From positions 744,001 through 808,000 of the forward strand of contig NZ_JAGGMR010000001.1 in assembly GCF_017875645.1 (NCBI RefSeq): a DNA stretch of 64,000 bases, given 5' to 3'. The notes under the pieces were generated by a model that worked only from the letters and a program-made list of their open reading frames with translations, had not been told where the DNA came from and made no database searches. Below, one piece after another: positions 36,496-42,772 of the stretch (position 1 is the first letter of the stretch; each line of letters opens with the position of its first letter). A program made the position numbers and the translations under genes. The stretch comes from Nocardia goodfellowii. GTDB taxonomy: Bacteria > Actinomycetota > Actinomycetes > Mycobacteriales > Mycobacteriaceae.

Positions 36496-36509
36496 TGAAA
36501 CACGTTCTA
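36496..36509. promoter_or_regulatory. KstR-type operator between cyp125 and fadA5
   Basis: TGAAACACGTTCTA is a perfect match to TnnAACnnGTTnnA. It lies 20 bases from the cyp125 start and 96 bases from the fadA5 start. Confidence 0.85.
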
Positions 36510-36542: not shown

Positions 36543-37772
<1,230 letters not shown>

Positions 37773-38133
37773 CTCTCAAGCCTTTTCGCCCCCGGAGGTT
37801 GAACGTTCATCCCAGAACGGCCAAAACGTGTCGTACGCCACACAATCGGCAGTACAGAGAACTAGATGAGACGTCAGCTATCTTATGGCTATCATGAGTC
37901 GATCGCGGAAGACCTCTGCGACGGGCCAGAACCTGTGCTTGTCACGTCTCCACCAGAGACCTTGGGGTGACCCGCAAACGCTGCGGTCCCAGTGACTTCG
38001 CTTGAGCCACACCTAGAAGCTTCAAGGAAATCCGGAATCAGGCGTAGGTTTTCAGTTACTGAGCCGCTAATATCAATGATACGTATCCGAGATAACGACT
38101 GTTAGTACAGCGAAGGGAATTGGGCGGCTCACA
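37773..38133. other. 361-base intergenic region upstream of the EspR-like gene
   Basis: No credible gene. It is visibly richer in A+T than its surroundings, especially 38030-38110, and holds a perfect palindrome GATACGTATC at 38078-38087, 47 bases before the regulator gene. No KstR or KstR2 box is seen. It marks the left edge of the island between fadA5 and the Rv3548c-like SDR. Confidence 0.6.
38078..38087. promoter_or_regulatory. Palindrome in the EspR-like gene promoter
   Basis: GATACGTATC is a perfect 10-base palindrome in an A+T-rich stretch 47 bases upstream of the regulator ATG. It is a candidate autoregulatory site, but there is only one clear copy. Confidence 0.4.
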
Positions 38134-38550
38134 ATGGCTGATTTCGCGGCGCGGCTGAACAAGCTGTTCGAAACCGTGCATCCCCCGGGGCGCAAGCCGC
38201 ACACCAACGCGGAGGTTGCGGCTGCGCTGACAGCCTCCGGGCATCCGATCTCGAAACCGTATCTCTCGCAGTTGCGGTCGGGACAACGGACGAACCCGTC
38301 GGACGAAACGGTGGCTGCACTGGCCAAGTTCTTCAAGGTCAAGCCGGACTACTTCTTCAACGACATCTATGCCGCCAAGATCGATCACGATCTGGAGCTG
38401 CTGTCCCAGCTGCAGGGCTATGGACTGCGACGGCTGTCGAGTAGAGCGTTCGACCTGTCCGAAGAATCACAGAACCTCCTCACCTCGATGGCGGAGAAGC
38501 TTCGGGCCAGTGAAGGCTTGCCCGAAATCCCGCCGGACGGAACGGAATAG
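38134..38550 (+). CDS. EspR-like helix-turn-helix regulator
   Basis: A 138-residue protein strongly resembling mycobacterial EspR along its whole length: FAARLNKLFETVHPPGRKPHTNAEV at the start, PYLSQLRSGQRTNPS in the helix-turn-helix, ALAKFFKVKPDYF, and a C-terminal dimerisation region with LRRLSSRAFDLSEESQNLL. EspR binds DNA as a dimer of dimers, bridges distant sites, and regulates ESX-1 and cell-wall lipid genes. Here it sits beside an ImmA-type protease, as XRE repressors often do, and converges on that operon. No esx genes are visible. ATG at 38134; the ribosome site is weak (GGGAATTGGG). Confidence 0.88.
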   Translation: MADFAARLNKLFETVHPPGRKPHTNAEVAAALTASGHPISKPYLSQLRSGQRTNPSDETVAALAKFFKVKPDYFFNDIYAAKIDHDLELLSQLQGYGLRRLSSRAFDLSEESQNLLTSMAEKLRASEGLPEIPPDGTE

Positions 38551-38707
38551 GACCAGTAAGGTCACCGCTCGACGGCCCTCGGGGCGTCGGCGGTGGTGTG
38601 CGCAAGGCGGGCTCCTTGGGGATGCCCGACGTGTTACCCCATGCTTTGAAGTGTCAGAGCTCTACGAACTCAGTTGGCCAGGGGGGTATACGTCGTAAGC
38701 AGCTGAG

Positions 38708-38738
38708 TCCGGCTCGGCCATAGGCCGTGCCGGATTTT
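38708..38738 (+). terminator. Hairpin terminator after the EspR-like gene
   Basis: TCCGGCTCGGCC (38708-38719) pairs with GGCCGTGCCGGA (38723-38734) with one T-T mismatch and an ATA loop, followed by TTTT. It lies 157 bases after the stop, in a 281-base gap that otherwise shows nothing convincing. Confidence 0.6.
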
Positions 38739-38831
38739 CTGCTGCCCGAGTCGAATTCGATTCCGACGCGGTAATCAGACCAATTGGGTTGTTCCGGCAA
38801 ACTCCGACGAATGTACTTGCAAATGAAATCG

Positions 38832-39863
38832 TCACCCGCGCGCGGAGTTCCGCGCGGGCGCCTCCATACCGCTGTAAGCGTCGAAGGAGCGCGCGATGGC
38901 CTGCACCCAGCCACGCGGACTGATGCCCTCCGGCGGCGCGATCCAGCGGGAGTCGCACACGATGTCCCCCAAAGGGTTTCGCGCCCACTCCGCCACCAGG
39001 TCGGCCCGCTCCACGATCGAGGCGGGCGGCTTACCCGCCGCTGTCAACTCGACGCCGCCGCCGGACTGCAGGTACAGCGCGTCCATGATCTGCGCGACCT
39101 GGTCGGACGCCTTGAGCTGGGTGGAGGTTCCGGTCTGATCGTGCGCCAGCACCTCCGGAAAACGGCCGATCATCAAACGGTGCAGTTCCCGGATCTGGCG
39201 CAGCAGCACCCGGGCGCGCAGCCACAGCTCCACCACGATCCAGATCGCGCCGAAAGCGATTAGCAGCGCGGCGATTTCCCACATCGGCCAGCCCCACGTC
39301 GGCTGACCCGCCGGAGCGCGCGGAGCTTCGATGATCGCGCGCCGAATGTTCAAGGCGGACAACACCGCGACGAGCGCCGTACCGGTCGTGTAGAGGGCGA
39401 TACCGCGCCCCAGGGTGGTCCAGTCGAGATTGCGCACGCCCGTGGTGATGATGAACAGACAGGCGATCACCACATAGGCCCAGCCGAGGGTGTAGGACCA
39501 GGCGAGCACGGCGATCATCGTGACGACGCCGCCGGCGTAGATATAAGACGCGATGCGCCCCAGATTCCGCCGCGAGACCACCGGCCAGGCGGCCGCCGCG
39601 ACCACCGCCGTGGCGGTCGTGAACAGGATCCACGCGGACACCACCACACCGTCGGACAACAGCCCGGCGTGCAGCCCCCGCGGTCGCAAATTGTCTATGG
39701 CCAAGGCGACTTCGGGCACGGCGACGGTGGCGCCGAGCGCGACCGACGCGACCGCGACCACGATCGCCACCCGCGCCGTGGTCGCCGGTTTGACCAGCAC
39801 GCGGCCCACCCGCGCACCGGCGGCCATCCACACGAGCATGGCTGTCAACCACAAGGTCATCAT
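38832..39863 (-). CDS. Multi-pass membrane protein (MAB_1171c-like)
   Basis: A 343-residue protein with about seven hydrophobic helices in the first 240 residues (start MMTLWLTAMLVWMAAGARVG; then VAIVVAVASVALGATVAV and so on) and a cytoplasmic C-terminal part with LRQIRELHRLMIGRFPEVL and a charged tail. The layout recalls the MAB_1171c family of putative transporters, which often accompany ImmA-type peptidase and XRE genes in actinobacteria; this is from memory and tentative. The ATG at 39863 overlaps the peptidase stop by 4 bases, so the two are coupled. Confidence 0.8.
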   Translation of the reverse strand: MMTLWLTAMLVWMAAGARVGRVLVKPATTARVAIVVAVASVALGATVAVPEVALAIDNLRPRGLHAGLLSDGVVVSAWILFTTATAVVAAAAWPVVSRRNLGRIASYIYAGGVVTMIAVLAWSYTLGWAYVVIACLFIITTGVRNLDWTTLGRGIALYTTGTALVAVLSALNIRRAIIEAPRAPAGQPTWGWPMWEIAALLIAFGAIWIVVELWLRARVLLRQIRELHRLMIGRFPEVLAHDQTGTSTQLKASDQVAQIMDALYLQSGGGVELTAAGKPPASIVERADLVAEWARNPLGDIVCDSRWIAPPEGISPRGWVQAIARSFDAYSGMEAPARNSARG

Positions 39864-40375
39864 CCGAGTGCCTCGTCGAATCGAAGGACCGAGACGCCTG
39901 CGCCCCGGGTGTTGAACACGCGCAGCCGCGTCAGGAGCATGGCCGCGAACGTCTCCGCCTCCCATTCGGCCTGGTCATCGGCGCCGTCGTCCAGGATCTG
40001 CTGATGCGCCCGCTGACTGAGCATGTAGGCGATCAGGTCGTCGCTGGCCTCCAGCGTGACCTCGGGAGCCGGAGCACCCTCGTGGTCGAAGACGATGTGG
40101 CCGAGTTCGTGCGCGAGGGTGTGCTCGCGGCTGGGCAGCGCCGAGGCCAGCACGATCACATCCCGGTCCGGATAGAGCCGCCGCTGCCCGCAGACACCGG
40201 GACCCAAATGCGCGCTGGCGATTTCGATCTCGCGGTCCCGCTCCTGCGCGATCGCCGCGACCACCTCGTCGAGGGTGCACGCGTCGAAATCGGCGGCGAC
40301 GGCGCACACCGCGTCCACCGCGGCGGCGACCCGCCGGTAGGACCGCGCGCTGTTCTGCGTCTTGCTCTCACTCAT
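39860..40375 (-). CDS. ImmA/IrrE-type metallopeptidase
   Basis: A 171-residue zinc peptidase of the M78 type. The metal site HTLAHELGHIVFDHEG contains HELGH (HExxH), and a downstream glutamate region AEWEAETFAAMLL supplies the third ligand. In ICE and phage systems such enzymes cut an XRE repressor encoded next to them; here the EspR-like regulator is the nearby candidate. ATG at 40375 with GAGGGG upstream; a GTG at 40390 is possible. It follows the repeat protein gene by 11 bases and overlaps the membrane protein gene, so all three form one operon. Confidence 0.87.
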   Translation of the reverse strand: MSESKTQNSARSYRRVAAAVDAVCAVAADFDACTLDEVVAAIAQERDREIEIASAHLGPGVCGQRRLYPDRDVIVLASALPSREHTLAHELGHIVFDHEGAPAPEVTLEASDDLIAYMLSQRAHQQILDDGADDQAEWEAETFAAMLLTRLRVFNTRGAGVSVLRFDEALG

Positions 40376-40386
40376 GCCACTGCCCC

Positions 40387-41676
40387 TCACGACCTCGGTC
40401 CGAAGAACTCGGCACGTGCGGCGTCGACGCGCGCCTGAGCGGCCGACGCACTCTGGAAACTGACTGCGCCGGAGCCGGTTCCGGCCAGTGCGAGCGCGAT
40501 CAGGCCACCGATGACGGTCAGCACGTTCGGCTCGGGCAGCCCGTCATCGGCGGAAGTCGGGCGCACATCGGGATTCGGCTTCGCCGGGGCGGCGGGCGGC
40601 GCCGGTGGTGGCGGCGGAGGCGGTGCGGGAGCTTCGGGCGGAGCCTGCTGCGGCGCGGGCGCGGCTACCACGGGCACCGGGAGCTGTGGAACCACCGGCG
40701 CGGGCACGGACGGTGCGGGCGGAATCGCCATCGGCACGCTCGGCGCGGGCGGGGCCGGCACCGGGATCGGCGGGATCGGAATCAACAGCAGGAGAAGCGG
40801 AGTCGCGGAACCGACAGCCGCCGAACCGACAGCGGCCGAACCGACAGCCGCGGAGCCGACAGCGGCGGAGCCGGTGCCGAGAACAGCCGAGCCCGTCCCG
40901 GCGAGCGCCGCCGAACCGGTACCGAGCAGCACGCCCAACCCAGCGGACCCTGAACCGAGCACCACGCCCAGCCCGGCCGAACCAGTCCCCAGCGCCGCGC
41001 CCAAACCAGCCGAACCCGTACCGAGGACGACGCCGAGACCCGCCGAACCCGTGCCGAGCAGCACGCCTAACCCGGCCGATCCGGTGCCGAGTGCCACACC
41101 TAAACCAGCCGAACCGGTGCCGAGTACCGCACCGAGGCCCGCCGATCCGGTGCCGAGCCCGAGTGCCAAGCCGGCCGAGCCGGTGCCGAGTACCGCTGCC
41201 GCACCGGCCGATCCGGTTGCGAGGGCGGCGGACCCGGTGCCGAGCACGGTGCCGACACCGGCGGAACCGGTGCCCAATACCGCGGACCCGGCGGCGGACC
41301 CGGTACCCAGGATTACTCCGAGGCCCGCGGACCCGGTGCCGAGCAGTGCGCCCAGGCCGGCGGCCGATCCCGAGCCGACCGCCTGCGTCGGCTGGATCGG
41401 AGGCTGCGCGACCTCGACGGGTTGGGGCTGGACGGGCGTTCGCTGTCCGGGAATGGTCATCGGCGTCCACTGTTCCGCGACCTCGGGAACCGCATCGGAC
41501 TCCGGGCAACCCGCACTCAATGAACAACCGGGCTGCGCCAGCACGTCGGCCTGTGCGGGCGCCGCCGGTCTGGCATAGCCGTCAGGCTGCGCGAAAGCGG
41601 CCATGGGACCGAGTAGCGCGAAGCCGGAAACCAGCCCGGCTACCGCGAATACCCGGAACATGCGACCAATGGCCAT
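40387..41676 (-). CDS. Secreted GTGSAGLG-repeat, Pro-rich protein
   Basis: A 429-residue protein of unknown family. A signal peptide (1-29, ending AAFA) is followed by a segment with two Cys (51, 57), then residues 101-291 made of imperfect 11-residue repeats GTGSAGLGxxL and, at the end, four pentapeptides close to AVGSA. A hydrophobic stretch (LLLLLIPIPPIPVP) and a Pro/Ala region (300-370) follow, and the C-terminus has a possible membrane helix (385-400) and a short charged tail. ATG at 41676 with AAGGGGAAGG upstream. It looks exported and surface- or wall-spanning. It leads the operon with the metallopeptidase and membrane protein. Confidence 0.85.
   Translation of the reverse strand: MAIGRMFRVFAVAGLVSGFALLGPMAAFAQPDGYARPAAPAQADVLAQPGCSLSAGCPESDAVPEVAEQWTPMTIPGQRTPVQPQPVEVAQPPIQPTQAVGSGSAAGLGALLGTGSAGLGVILGTGSAAGSAVLGTGSAGVGTVLGTGSAALATGSAGAAAVLGTGSAGLALGLGTGSAGLGAVLGTGSAGLGVALGTGSAGLGVLLGTGSAGLGVVLGTGSAGLGAALGTGSAGLGVVLGSGSAGLGVLLGTGSAALAGTGSAVLGTGSAAVGSAAVGSAAVGSAAVGSATPLLLLLIPIPPIPVPAPPAPSVPMAIPPAPSVPAPVVPQLPVPVVAAPAPQQAPPEAPAPPPPPPPAPPAAPAKPNPDVRPTSADDGLPEPNVLTVIGGLIALALAGTGSGAVSFQSASAAQARVDAARAEFFGPRS
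40804..41376 (-). repeat. Tandem 33-bp coding repeats (GTGSAGLGxxL)
   Basis: About 15 imperfect 33-base units inside the secreted protein gene, each encoding an 11-residue GTGSA-type module, with three or four shortened units and a final run of four 15-base units. The translated repeats are well conserved while third bases vary, so the array is selected as protein and not freshly expanded. Confidence 0.88.
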
Positions 41677-41845
41677 GCGCCAGCCTTCCCCTTCATCACA
41701 TACAGCGCAGTTCTCATGCCCGGTCGCAACACTCTCCGGGACTTATACGGACGAGATATAAGAGTAAACGGCGTCGCGATCTTGCGCAGAGAGACTGCGG
41801 AACTGTGACAGGGCCCTCGAGCTGAGGAGTAGCTGGCGAAGGTGC

Positions 41846-42772
41846 TCAGGCGCCGTAGACCGGCTCCGGCGGCACGGCTTTGGCGAGCAGATCCTGGACC
41901 ACCGGGCCCAGTTCGGCGGGATTCCAGCGGGCGCCCTTGTCCACCGCCGCGCCGTGCCGCCAGCCGTCGGCCACCGCGACTTTGCCGGCTTCGACCTCGA
42001 ACATCCGTCCGGTGATACCGGCGGACTCGGCGCTACCGAGCCAAACCACCAGCGGTGACACGTTTTCCGGCGCCATGGCGTCGAATCCGCCGTCCTCGGG
42101 CGCGGCCATCGTCTCGGCGAACACGGTCTCGGTCATGCGCGTGCGCGCGGCGGGCGCGATCGCGTTCACGGTGACGCCGTAGCGCGCGAATTCGGCGGCG
42201 GCCGTGAGCGTCAGGCCCGCGATGCCCGCCTTGGCTGCCCCGTAGTTGCTCTGGCCGACGCTGCCCTGCAGGCCCGCCCCGGAGCTGGTGTTGATGATGC
42301 GCGCGTCGACCGGGTTGCCCGCTTTGCTTTCCGCGCGCCAGTATTCGATCGCGTGCCGCATGGTGGCGAAGTGGCCCTTGAGGTGTACGCGAATCACCGC
42401 GTCCCACTCGTCCTCGGACAGGTTGGCCAGCATCCGGTCGCGCACAAAACCGGCATTGTTGACGAGCACGTCCAGGCGGCCGAAGGTGTCGACGGCGGTG
42501 CGGATCAGGTTGCGGGCGCCCGCCCAGTCGGCGACGTCGTCACCGTTGGCCACGGCTTCGCCGCCGAGCGCCTTGATCTCCGAAACCACTTGCTGGGCCG
42601 GGGTTTCGGCGGTGGGGTCGCCGTTCAGCGCCGAGCCCAGGTCGTTCACCACGACCTTCGCGCCGGCGGCCGCGAAAGCCAGCGCGTGTGCCCGGCCGAT
42701 GCCGCGGCCCGCGCCGGTGACGATGACGACGCGCCCGGCGCAGAGCTGGGCGTCCTTGCTCACTTCAGCCAT
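41846..42772 (-). CDS. Short-chain dehydrogenase (Rv3548c-like)
   Basis: A 308-residue SDR at the Rv3548c position. NAD site GAGRGIG, VNDLGSALNGD, NNAGFVRD, NTSSGAGLQG and the catalytic NYGAAKAG are all present. The extended C-terminus (after residue 280) resembles Hsd4A-type proteins. It lies 30 bases after the Rv3549c-like SDR, in the KstR2-controlled part of the cluster, so a role in oxidation of a hydroxyacyl-CoA during C/D ring breakdown is likely but not shown. ATG at 42772. Confidence 0.87.
   Translation of the reverse strand: MAEVSKDAQLCAGRVVIVTGAGRGIGRAHALAFAAAGAKVVVNDLGSALNGDPTAETPAQQVVSEIKALGGEAVANGDDVADWAGARNLIRTAVDTFGRLDVLVNNAGFVRDRMLANLSEDEWDAVIRVHLKGHFATMRHAIEYWRAESKAGNPVDARIINTSSGAGLQGSVGQSNYGAAKAGIAGLTLTAAAEFARYGVTVNAIAPAARTRMTETVFAETMAAPEDGGFDAMAPENVSPLVVWLGSAESAGITGRMFEVEAGKVAVADGWRHGAAVDKGARWNPAELGPVVQDLLAKAVPPEPVYGA

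Follow-up and report, generated by a model that had tools for sequence, protein, structure and literature searches.

The EspR homologue of Nocardia goodfellowii and a possible membrane-coupled M78 peptidase module beside it

Introduction

Why should a gene coding for a homologue of EspR, the nucleoid-associated protein of Mycobacterium tuberculosis (Rv3849), be found next to genes for a metallopeptidase, a membrane protein and a repeat-bearing surface protein? The question is raised by a block of four genes in Nocardia goodfellowii (contig NZ_JAGGMR010000001.1), analysed here within a window of 64 kb from a genome of 7.98 Mb; coordinates without further label are counted from the first letter of this window. 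The block sits in the sterol cluster, between fadA5 and a short-chain dehydrogenase/reductase (SDR) gene. M78 enzymes cut XRE repressors, as in the pairs ImmR-ImmA, DdrO-IrrE and CapH-CapP, and a preliminary description of this DNA had proposed that the four genes may form a single, envelope-sensing system; in M. tuberculosis, according to it, the corresponding gap would hold only Rv3547 (ddn).

Results

Gene order and linkage

All four genes that the preliminary description placed between fadA5 and the SDR gene were present at the following coordinates. The plus-strand gene espR (38134..38550) encodes an XRE-type helix-turn-helix (HTH) regulator of 138 amino acids, a full-length homologue of EspR, on which a minus-strand operon, rep-pep-memb, converges. 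In this operon, rep (40387..41676) encodes a protein of 429 amino acids with a hydrophobic N-terminus (a signal, as judged by eye), a GTGSAG repeat, a proline-rich part and a C-terminal membrane helix followed by a conserved tail; pep (39860..40375) starts with ATG and encodes an M78 (ImmA/IrrE-type) metallopeptidase of 171 amino acids; and memb (38832..39863) encodes a protein of 343 amino acids, remotely related to the MAB_1171c family, for which seven transmembrane (TM) helices and a helical C-terminal stretch are predicted. The gap of 11 bases between rep and pep (40376-40386) and the overlap of 4 bases between pep and memb (39860-39863) had been correctly described.

We searched 251 genomes of the family (E 1e-5) and obtained matches to espR in 179, to pep in 94 and to memb in 62 of them. 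Every strong pep hit had espR within 3 kb (68/68; 61 convergent and 7 codirectional), every strong memb hit had espR within 5 kb (56/56), and each of the 68 strong pep hits had memb next to it (no more than 200 bp away in 55, 227 bp away in the Nocardia genome G065, and at the 12 hits in mycobacteria). Same-genus genomes listed among those searched had espR, pep and memb in 20/20 cases. Because espR was downstream of pep-memb in 78 of the 80 named loci (78 of Nocardia and 2 of Antrihabitans), the other two (L044 and L052) being cut by the locus end, the four-gene arrangement is not due to chance. Weaker pep matches had a listed espR nearby in 14 of 41 cases. The espR-pep linkage count took 128 of the 150 listed espR matches and 95 of the 109 pep matches (the 68 strong and 27 of the 41 weak ones); none of the 22 espR matches outside it had pep nearby, none of the 14 weak pep matches outside it had a listed espR nearby, and six of these 14 were within 1 kb of a match to NF042915, the model of the MAB_1171c family.

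In N. concava and N. terrae (L074 and L077) the SDR-ipdAB segment is inverted and rep-pep-memb-espR-fadA5 is intact, and in N. nova and N. elegans (L054 and L056) roughly 3 kb of additional DNA separates memb from espR, with an SDR-like match there in L056. The chromosomal setting is the sterol cluster in Nocardia, the GDT1/DUF6474 neighbourhood in Mycobacterium and, as judged by eye, a third one in the g30 genomes. At L196, also in a sterol cluster, espR is directly beside the SDR gene, and rep, pep and memb are missing as one block. On the EspR tree of 66 rows the presence of pep changes seven times (6-8), at least three of these changes being forced by strong branches; several loci duplicate one another, for example L001 the window and L172 the locus L112, and the locus counts used in this work (96, 150, 75 and 66) are not all independent. 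Co-occurrence across lineages, a check proposed in the preliminary description, was thus found in many lineages and layouts and not in one lineage by chance; its label of an 'island' proved misleading, the block being old and retained by descent.

Mycobacterial EspR with and without the module

The mycobacterial (g29) locus has the order GDT1-espR-[memb-pep-rep]-DUF6474 and occurs in three states: full, without rep, and without the whole memb-pep-rep module. Among 20 mycobacterial genomes with a listed EspR, both pep and memb were beside EspR in 12 (7 of them with rep) and neither was in the remaining 8, called orphans here. We compared the two sets (12 versus 8) by mean pairwise distance, which was 0.044 with pep and 0.059 without it for the DNA-binding part of EspR, 0.210 and 0.225 for the neighbour DUF6474, and 0.086 and 0.295 for the C-terminal part of EspR. 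Variable sites in the C-terminal part numbered 29 of 51 in the eight orphans and never exceeded 11 in 200 random sets of eight pep-bearing loci. The ratio of the C-terminal domain to DUF6474 was 1.48 and 1.60 in both orphan groups of the DUF6474 tree, and 0, 0.33 and 0.58 in three pep-bearing groups. Where the module is absent, this domain thus diverges about three times more, and the DNA-binding part and DUF6474 hardly more; we take this as moderate evidence, from sequence comparison, that a product of the module contacts the C-terminal (dimerisation) domain of EspR.

In M. tuberculosis, Rv3850 follows espR on its downstream side, and this state resembles that of the orphan loci L118-L120. 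The gene upstream of mycobacterial espR, in the Rv3848 position (L111:1739-2587), codes for a member of the GDT1 divalent cation/proton antiporter family; rv3848 of M. tuberculosis is reported to end just upstream of espR (PMC3315491). In a mouse study, Rv3848 and espR mutants both mapped host loci, on different chromosomes (PMC10468300).

EspR and its leader

Residues 3-129 of the window EspR align with the structures of M. tuberculosis EspR in the PDB (3qf3, 3r1f and 4ndw; 127 residues, E 6e-38), covering the HTH and the C-terminal domain, and the wording 'EspR-like' can be raised to full-length EspR homology. The HTH_3 match scored 30.9 bits against a cut-off of 23. Over 96 Nocardia loci the protein differed from that of the window by a mean of 0.4% of its amino acids (maximum 1.5%) versus 32% at four-fold degenerate sites, which argues for very strong purifying selection on Nocardia EspR. 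A second copy of EspR, 88% identical, was found in the same genome (G000:C1:2773087-2773494, L180), where no peptidase was found nearby, and two further copies, 77% identical to the window EspR, are on a second contig of G065 (C2:72362-72757 and 146594-146989).

The leader/promoter region of espR (38035..38133, plus strand) hardly varies at all. When 78 rows were aligned (the window locus and those of L002-L081 with enough sequence), conservation reached at least 97% in nearly all columns of the ~95 bp before the start, and a scan of this leader gave no Rfam match. Among Nocardia, the leader is more conserved than the synonymous sites of espR itself. Repeats of the GTTA(Y)C-N5-GTTA(Y)C kind are, by eye, common to the espR leaders of other lineages, and a position weight matrix (PWM) built from 20 espR leaders gave two candidate EspR operators. 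Candidate operator 1 (38055..38071, plus strand; GTTACT-N5-GCTAAT type) had the top score in the window and belongs to the training set. Candidate operator 2 (37877..37893, plus strand), located 178 bp upstream of operator 1 and outside the training set, had the second-best score in the 64 kb, 15.7 bits versus 11.4-14.6 for the best site in each of three shuffled windows.

The peptidase

The product of pep matches Peptidase M78 (PF06114) with 28.1 bits, the gathering cut-off being 22; the distant relatives at L122, L124 and L161 are below this cut-off and those at L114 and L131 had no match. The HExxH motif is intact in 150/150 pep loci, and Glu137 and Glu141 are present in all 146 loci whose alignment reaches them, the other four alignments being too short; either residue is a candidate for the downstream ligand. 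By sequence, no solved structure matched pep. Its predicted model has a mean predicted local distance difference test (pLDDT) value of 78, and the best PDB matches of this model were CapP (7t5t), PprI (8slm and 8sln) and two M. tuberculosis transcriptional regulators, all with E above 0.001. PADLOC, run on the four block genes only, called capP (E 2e-9) and capH (E 7e-5); as regards a context of cyclic oligonucleotide-based antiphage signalling (CBASS), the immediate flanks are the thiolase and SDR genes.

The membrane protein and the MAB_1171c cassette

In the AlphaFold2 model of memb (mean pLDDT 79.6), seven helices are predicted to be TM and the C-terminal part is helical as well; the protein is 94% identical to one of Nocardia sp. 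XZ_19_385. Its direct score with NF042915 (MAB_1171c family putative transporter) was 11.8 bits, far below the cut-off of 100, and a profile-profile comparison gave a probability of 89.8% and E 1.8e-6 over 240 columns. Counterparts of memb weakly matched by NF042915 at the same places were found in three Mycobacterium, six g30, one g14 and one Rhodococcus-like genome. On these matches we assign memb to the remote relatives of the MAB_1171c family.

The 20 NF042915 loci that scored best in the family all had, next to the 7-TM gene, both a gene for an EspR-type HTH protein and an open reading frame (ORF) with HExxH, and the HTH proteins matched positions 3-134 of the 137 of the EspR model; one such HTH protein, from another family of the class, matches PDB EspR at 2.6e-27. 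Class-wide, 27 NF042915 loci outside Mycobacterium (L151-L171 and L174-L179) were considered. An HExxH ORF was present in 24 of them, some of which, L175 for example, may be chance, and a match to the EspR hidden Markov model with E below 1e-14 was within ~4 kb in 14, being directly upstream and on the same strand in 11; in the remaining loci the EspR-type HTH was absent or weak. Distances of HTH and M78 proteins were congruent: r was 0.91 in a set of 75 loci and 0.60 among distant pairs, and permutation gave at most 0.11, although part of this congruence comes from shared species history and near-duplicate loci. EspR thus appears to represent a single branch of a broader HTH-M78-7TM cassette.

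The genome of the window also has three clustered MAB_1171c-family matches of its own (G000:C1:432065-436236), and a MAB_1171c mutant is reported to form less biofilm (PMC8707978).

The surface protein

The preliminary description took rep for a secreted repeat protein. The repeats were confirmed, with an array of a 33-base (11-residue) unit detected by Tandem Repeats Finder (40908..41363, minus strand), but the protein is better regarded as membrane-anchored, since hydropathy gave a C-terminal hydrophobic segment (residues 385-407; 40456..40524, minus strand) and a conserved tail of QARVDAARAEFF type (40390..40455, minus strand) follows the common tail pattern. Upstream of pep, 114 of the 150 loci have a protein in which a hydrophobic segment near the C-terminus is combined with a short basic tail, both features being the filter criteria, and its tail fits the common pattern in 90 of the 114. 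Many of the 36 misses were cut by locus ends, and L002 and L128 were failures of the filter; the loci that seem to lack rep are L103, L214, L114-L116 and L121-L125. The outer part has GTGSAG repeats in Nocardia and proline- or threonine-rich stretches in mycobacteria. The gene was not found in Skermania, in 5 of the 12 pep-bearing mycobacteria, in g30 or in g14, and rep is thus not essential to the set.

Discussion

Proposed mechanism

We give about even chances to a mechanism in which pep, gated by memb and sometimes by rep, inactivates EspR via its C-terminal dimerisation domain, both the cleavage and the sensing being inferred. The block would be a conserved one-way signalling module, whose output would be EspR as a DNA-bridging HTH regulator, whose switch would be the M78 metallopeptidase, and whose input would be memb, translationally coupled to pep, together in many genera with the anchored surface protein rep. 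An envelope signal would release or activate pep, which would then cut or trim EspR in its C-terminal dimerisation domain; EspR would no longer bind DNA cooperatively or bridge it, and its targets, espR itself included, would change their expression. EspR is the putative substrate, and the cut site, the signal and what memb and rep do are likewise putative. That the signal is envelope stress is a guess, made from the membrane partners and from the EspR sites of M. tuberculosis, most of which are reported to be near cell-wall genes (PMC3315491).

The EspR variant called EspR-Delta-10 is of interest for the proposed trimming. Its ten missing residues are, we assume, the C-terminal ones. With these last residues removed, M. 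tuberculosis EspR is described as dimerisation-deficient, with DNA protection reduced (PMC3315491), so C-terminal trimming could be enough.

A more tentative suggestion, which we consider possible but would not favour, concerns EspR of M. tuberculosis, a free nucleoid-associated protein and ESX-1 regulator. Its ancestor may have been the cognate substrate of an M78 peptidase coupled to the membrane; mycobacterial lineages that lost pep, the 7-TM protein and rep would have been left with an EspR freed from control, whose dimerisation domain then diversified.

Several results weigh against the proposed control of EspR by the module. Among the espR matches listed, 68 of 150 had no pep within 5 kb. 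EspR does not depend on the other genes of the block, because it is often kept without them, and in the family it is pep and memb that go with EspR and not the reverse, since strong pep and memb hits are always near espR and espR is often alone. As to the C-terminal domain, the counts of variable sites by EspR domain did not differ significantly (Fisher p 0.22 in Mycobacterium and 0.84 outside). Outside Mycobacterium the effect was weak, the C/N ratio of EspR being 0.83 with pep and 1.20 without; when non-mycobacterial EspR was compared between 20 orphans and 25 pep-bearing loci for a possible cleavage-site signature, only T53, S102, T117 and M119 were more variable in orphans. The orphan mycobacteria form two groups on the DUF6474 tree and three of them join on the EspR tree (93/78); because these three form one group there, the losses in Mycobacterium would be two at most and perhaps one. 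The distance to Nocardia EspR was alike in mycobacterial pep-bearing loci (0.45-0.50) and orphans (0.46-0.51), and because of this equality a general change of rate is disfavoured; a new role of EspR in the orphan lineages could also explain the C-terminal shift. The fold search with memb was not significant, its best 50 matches being G-protein-coupled receptors (GPCRs) or GPCR-like designs with E 0.03 or worse and a query TM-score of at most 0.43, and these are taken as a likeness of topology only. Finally, the best PWM score for an EspR-type operator upstream of rep was 1.0 bit, with 289 window positions higher, and a site there was rejected. The single-system idea is thus partly supported, by the linkage and by the sign of contact with the EspR C-terminal domain; rep is not an essential part of the set and EspR does not depend on it.

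Alternative explanations

EspR might interact with the module without being cut, either because pep acts as a peptide-binding adaptor or chaperone or because memb tethers EspR to the membrane via the C-terminal domain. This would cover the linkage and the C-terminal constraint without proteolysis, and EspR is described as a relatively abundant protein (PMC3315491), which is a poor fit for a site-specific switch. We allow this a small but real chance, because no broken HExxH was found among the 150 loci and the activity of pep therefore seems to be selected. It is also conceivable that pep acts on rep or memb, in the processing of the surface protein, EspR being a mere neighbour or the transcriptional regulator of the operon. 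The tight rep-pep-memb operon, with its 11-base gap and 4-base overlap, and the conserved tail of rep fit this proposal, which is nevertheless unlikely in our estimate: several lineages that bear pep gave no rep, yet espR is beside every strong pep hit, an EspR-type HTH is also beside the MAB_1171c/HExxH pairs, and the DNA upstream of rep yielded no EspR-type operator.

The PADLOC matches to capP (E 2e-9) and capH (E 7e-5) and the fold matches of pep to CapP 7t5t and PprI 8slm/8sln could point instead to a switch like CapH-CapP or DdrO-IrrE, acting in DNA damage or defence and sensing DNA rather than the envelope. Such a role appears very unlikely, because memb is beside pep at all 68 strong pep hits and the flanks tested were fadA5, SDR, GDT1 and DUF6474, no wider search for defence genes having been made. 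That shared descent alone holds the genes together, without any function in common, is hardly probable at all: most Nocardia loci are simply syntenic and convergent neighbours need not cooperate, but the linkage survives rearrangement and a change of chromosomal setting or of gene orientation (convergent or codirectional), and where the genes are absent they are absent as a block.

Relation to known systems

The window EspR shares full-length homology with M. tuberculosis EspR. Two EspR sites upstream of espR itself may be another likeness, those of M. tuberculosis being reported to flank its promoter, where a loop was proposed (PMC3315491), and those of the window being candidates by PWM; unlike that gene, the window espR has an M78 peptidase, a 7-TM protein and rep adjacent to it. 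The XRE-M78 antirepressor pairs ImmR-ImmA, DdrO-IrrE/PprI and CapH-CapP likewise combine an HTH regulator with a small HExxH M78 peptidase, whereas the window set adds a coupled 7-TM protein, an optional anchored surface protein and a regulator of the nucleoid-protein type. The MAB_1171c (NF042915) loci also have an HTH gene, an HExxH ORF and a 7-TM gene side by side, but the 20 best of them are codirectional, whereas the window set is convergent and has rep added, with memb far below the family cut-off. The block can be filed as a putative membrane-coupled form of XRE-M78 regulation built on EspR. No paper naming EspR together with ImmA or IrrE was found in the open-licence literature, an absence that is not proof.

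If the proposed module exists, it would show where EspR, a studied global regulator, is likely to have come from, and would name candidates for its control in those relatives that still hold them. The proposal predicts that EspR is controlled by proteolysis from the membrane, suggests a function for the MAB_1171c family, which NCBIfam lists just as putative transporters, and makes a testable prediction on one protein domain, the C-terminal domain of EspR.

Flanking genes and other features of the window

On the espR side, the neighbour of the block is fadA5 (36600-37772), a steroid 3-ketoacyl-CoA thiolase gene (NF005889), and on the rep side it is the SDR gene (41846-42772). The Rfam scan of the block had no match at E 0.1. 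Control of the block by KstR had no sign, the KstR-like motif (one mismatch allowed) being absent from 37773-41845, with its nearest occurrences at 36496, 36563 and 37038. Across the window, KstR-like palindromes are enriched (8409-61190; 20 matches versus 5.1 expected), in keeping with a sterol cluster.

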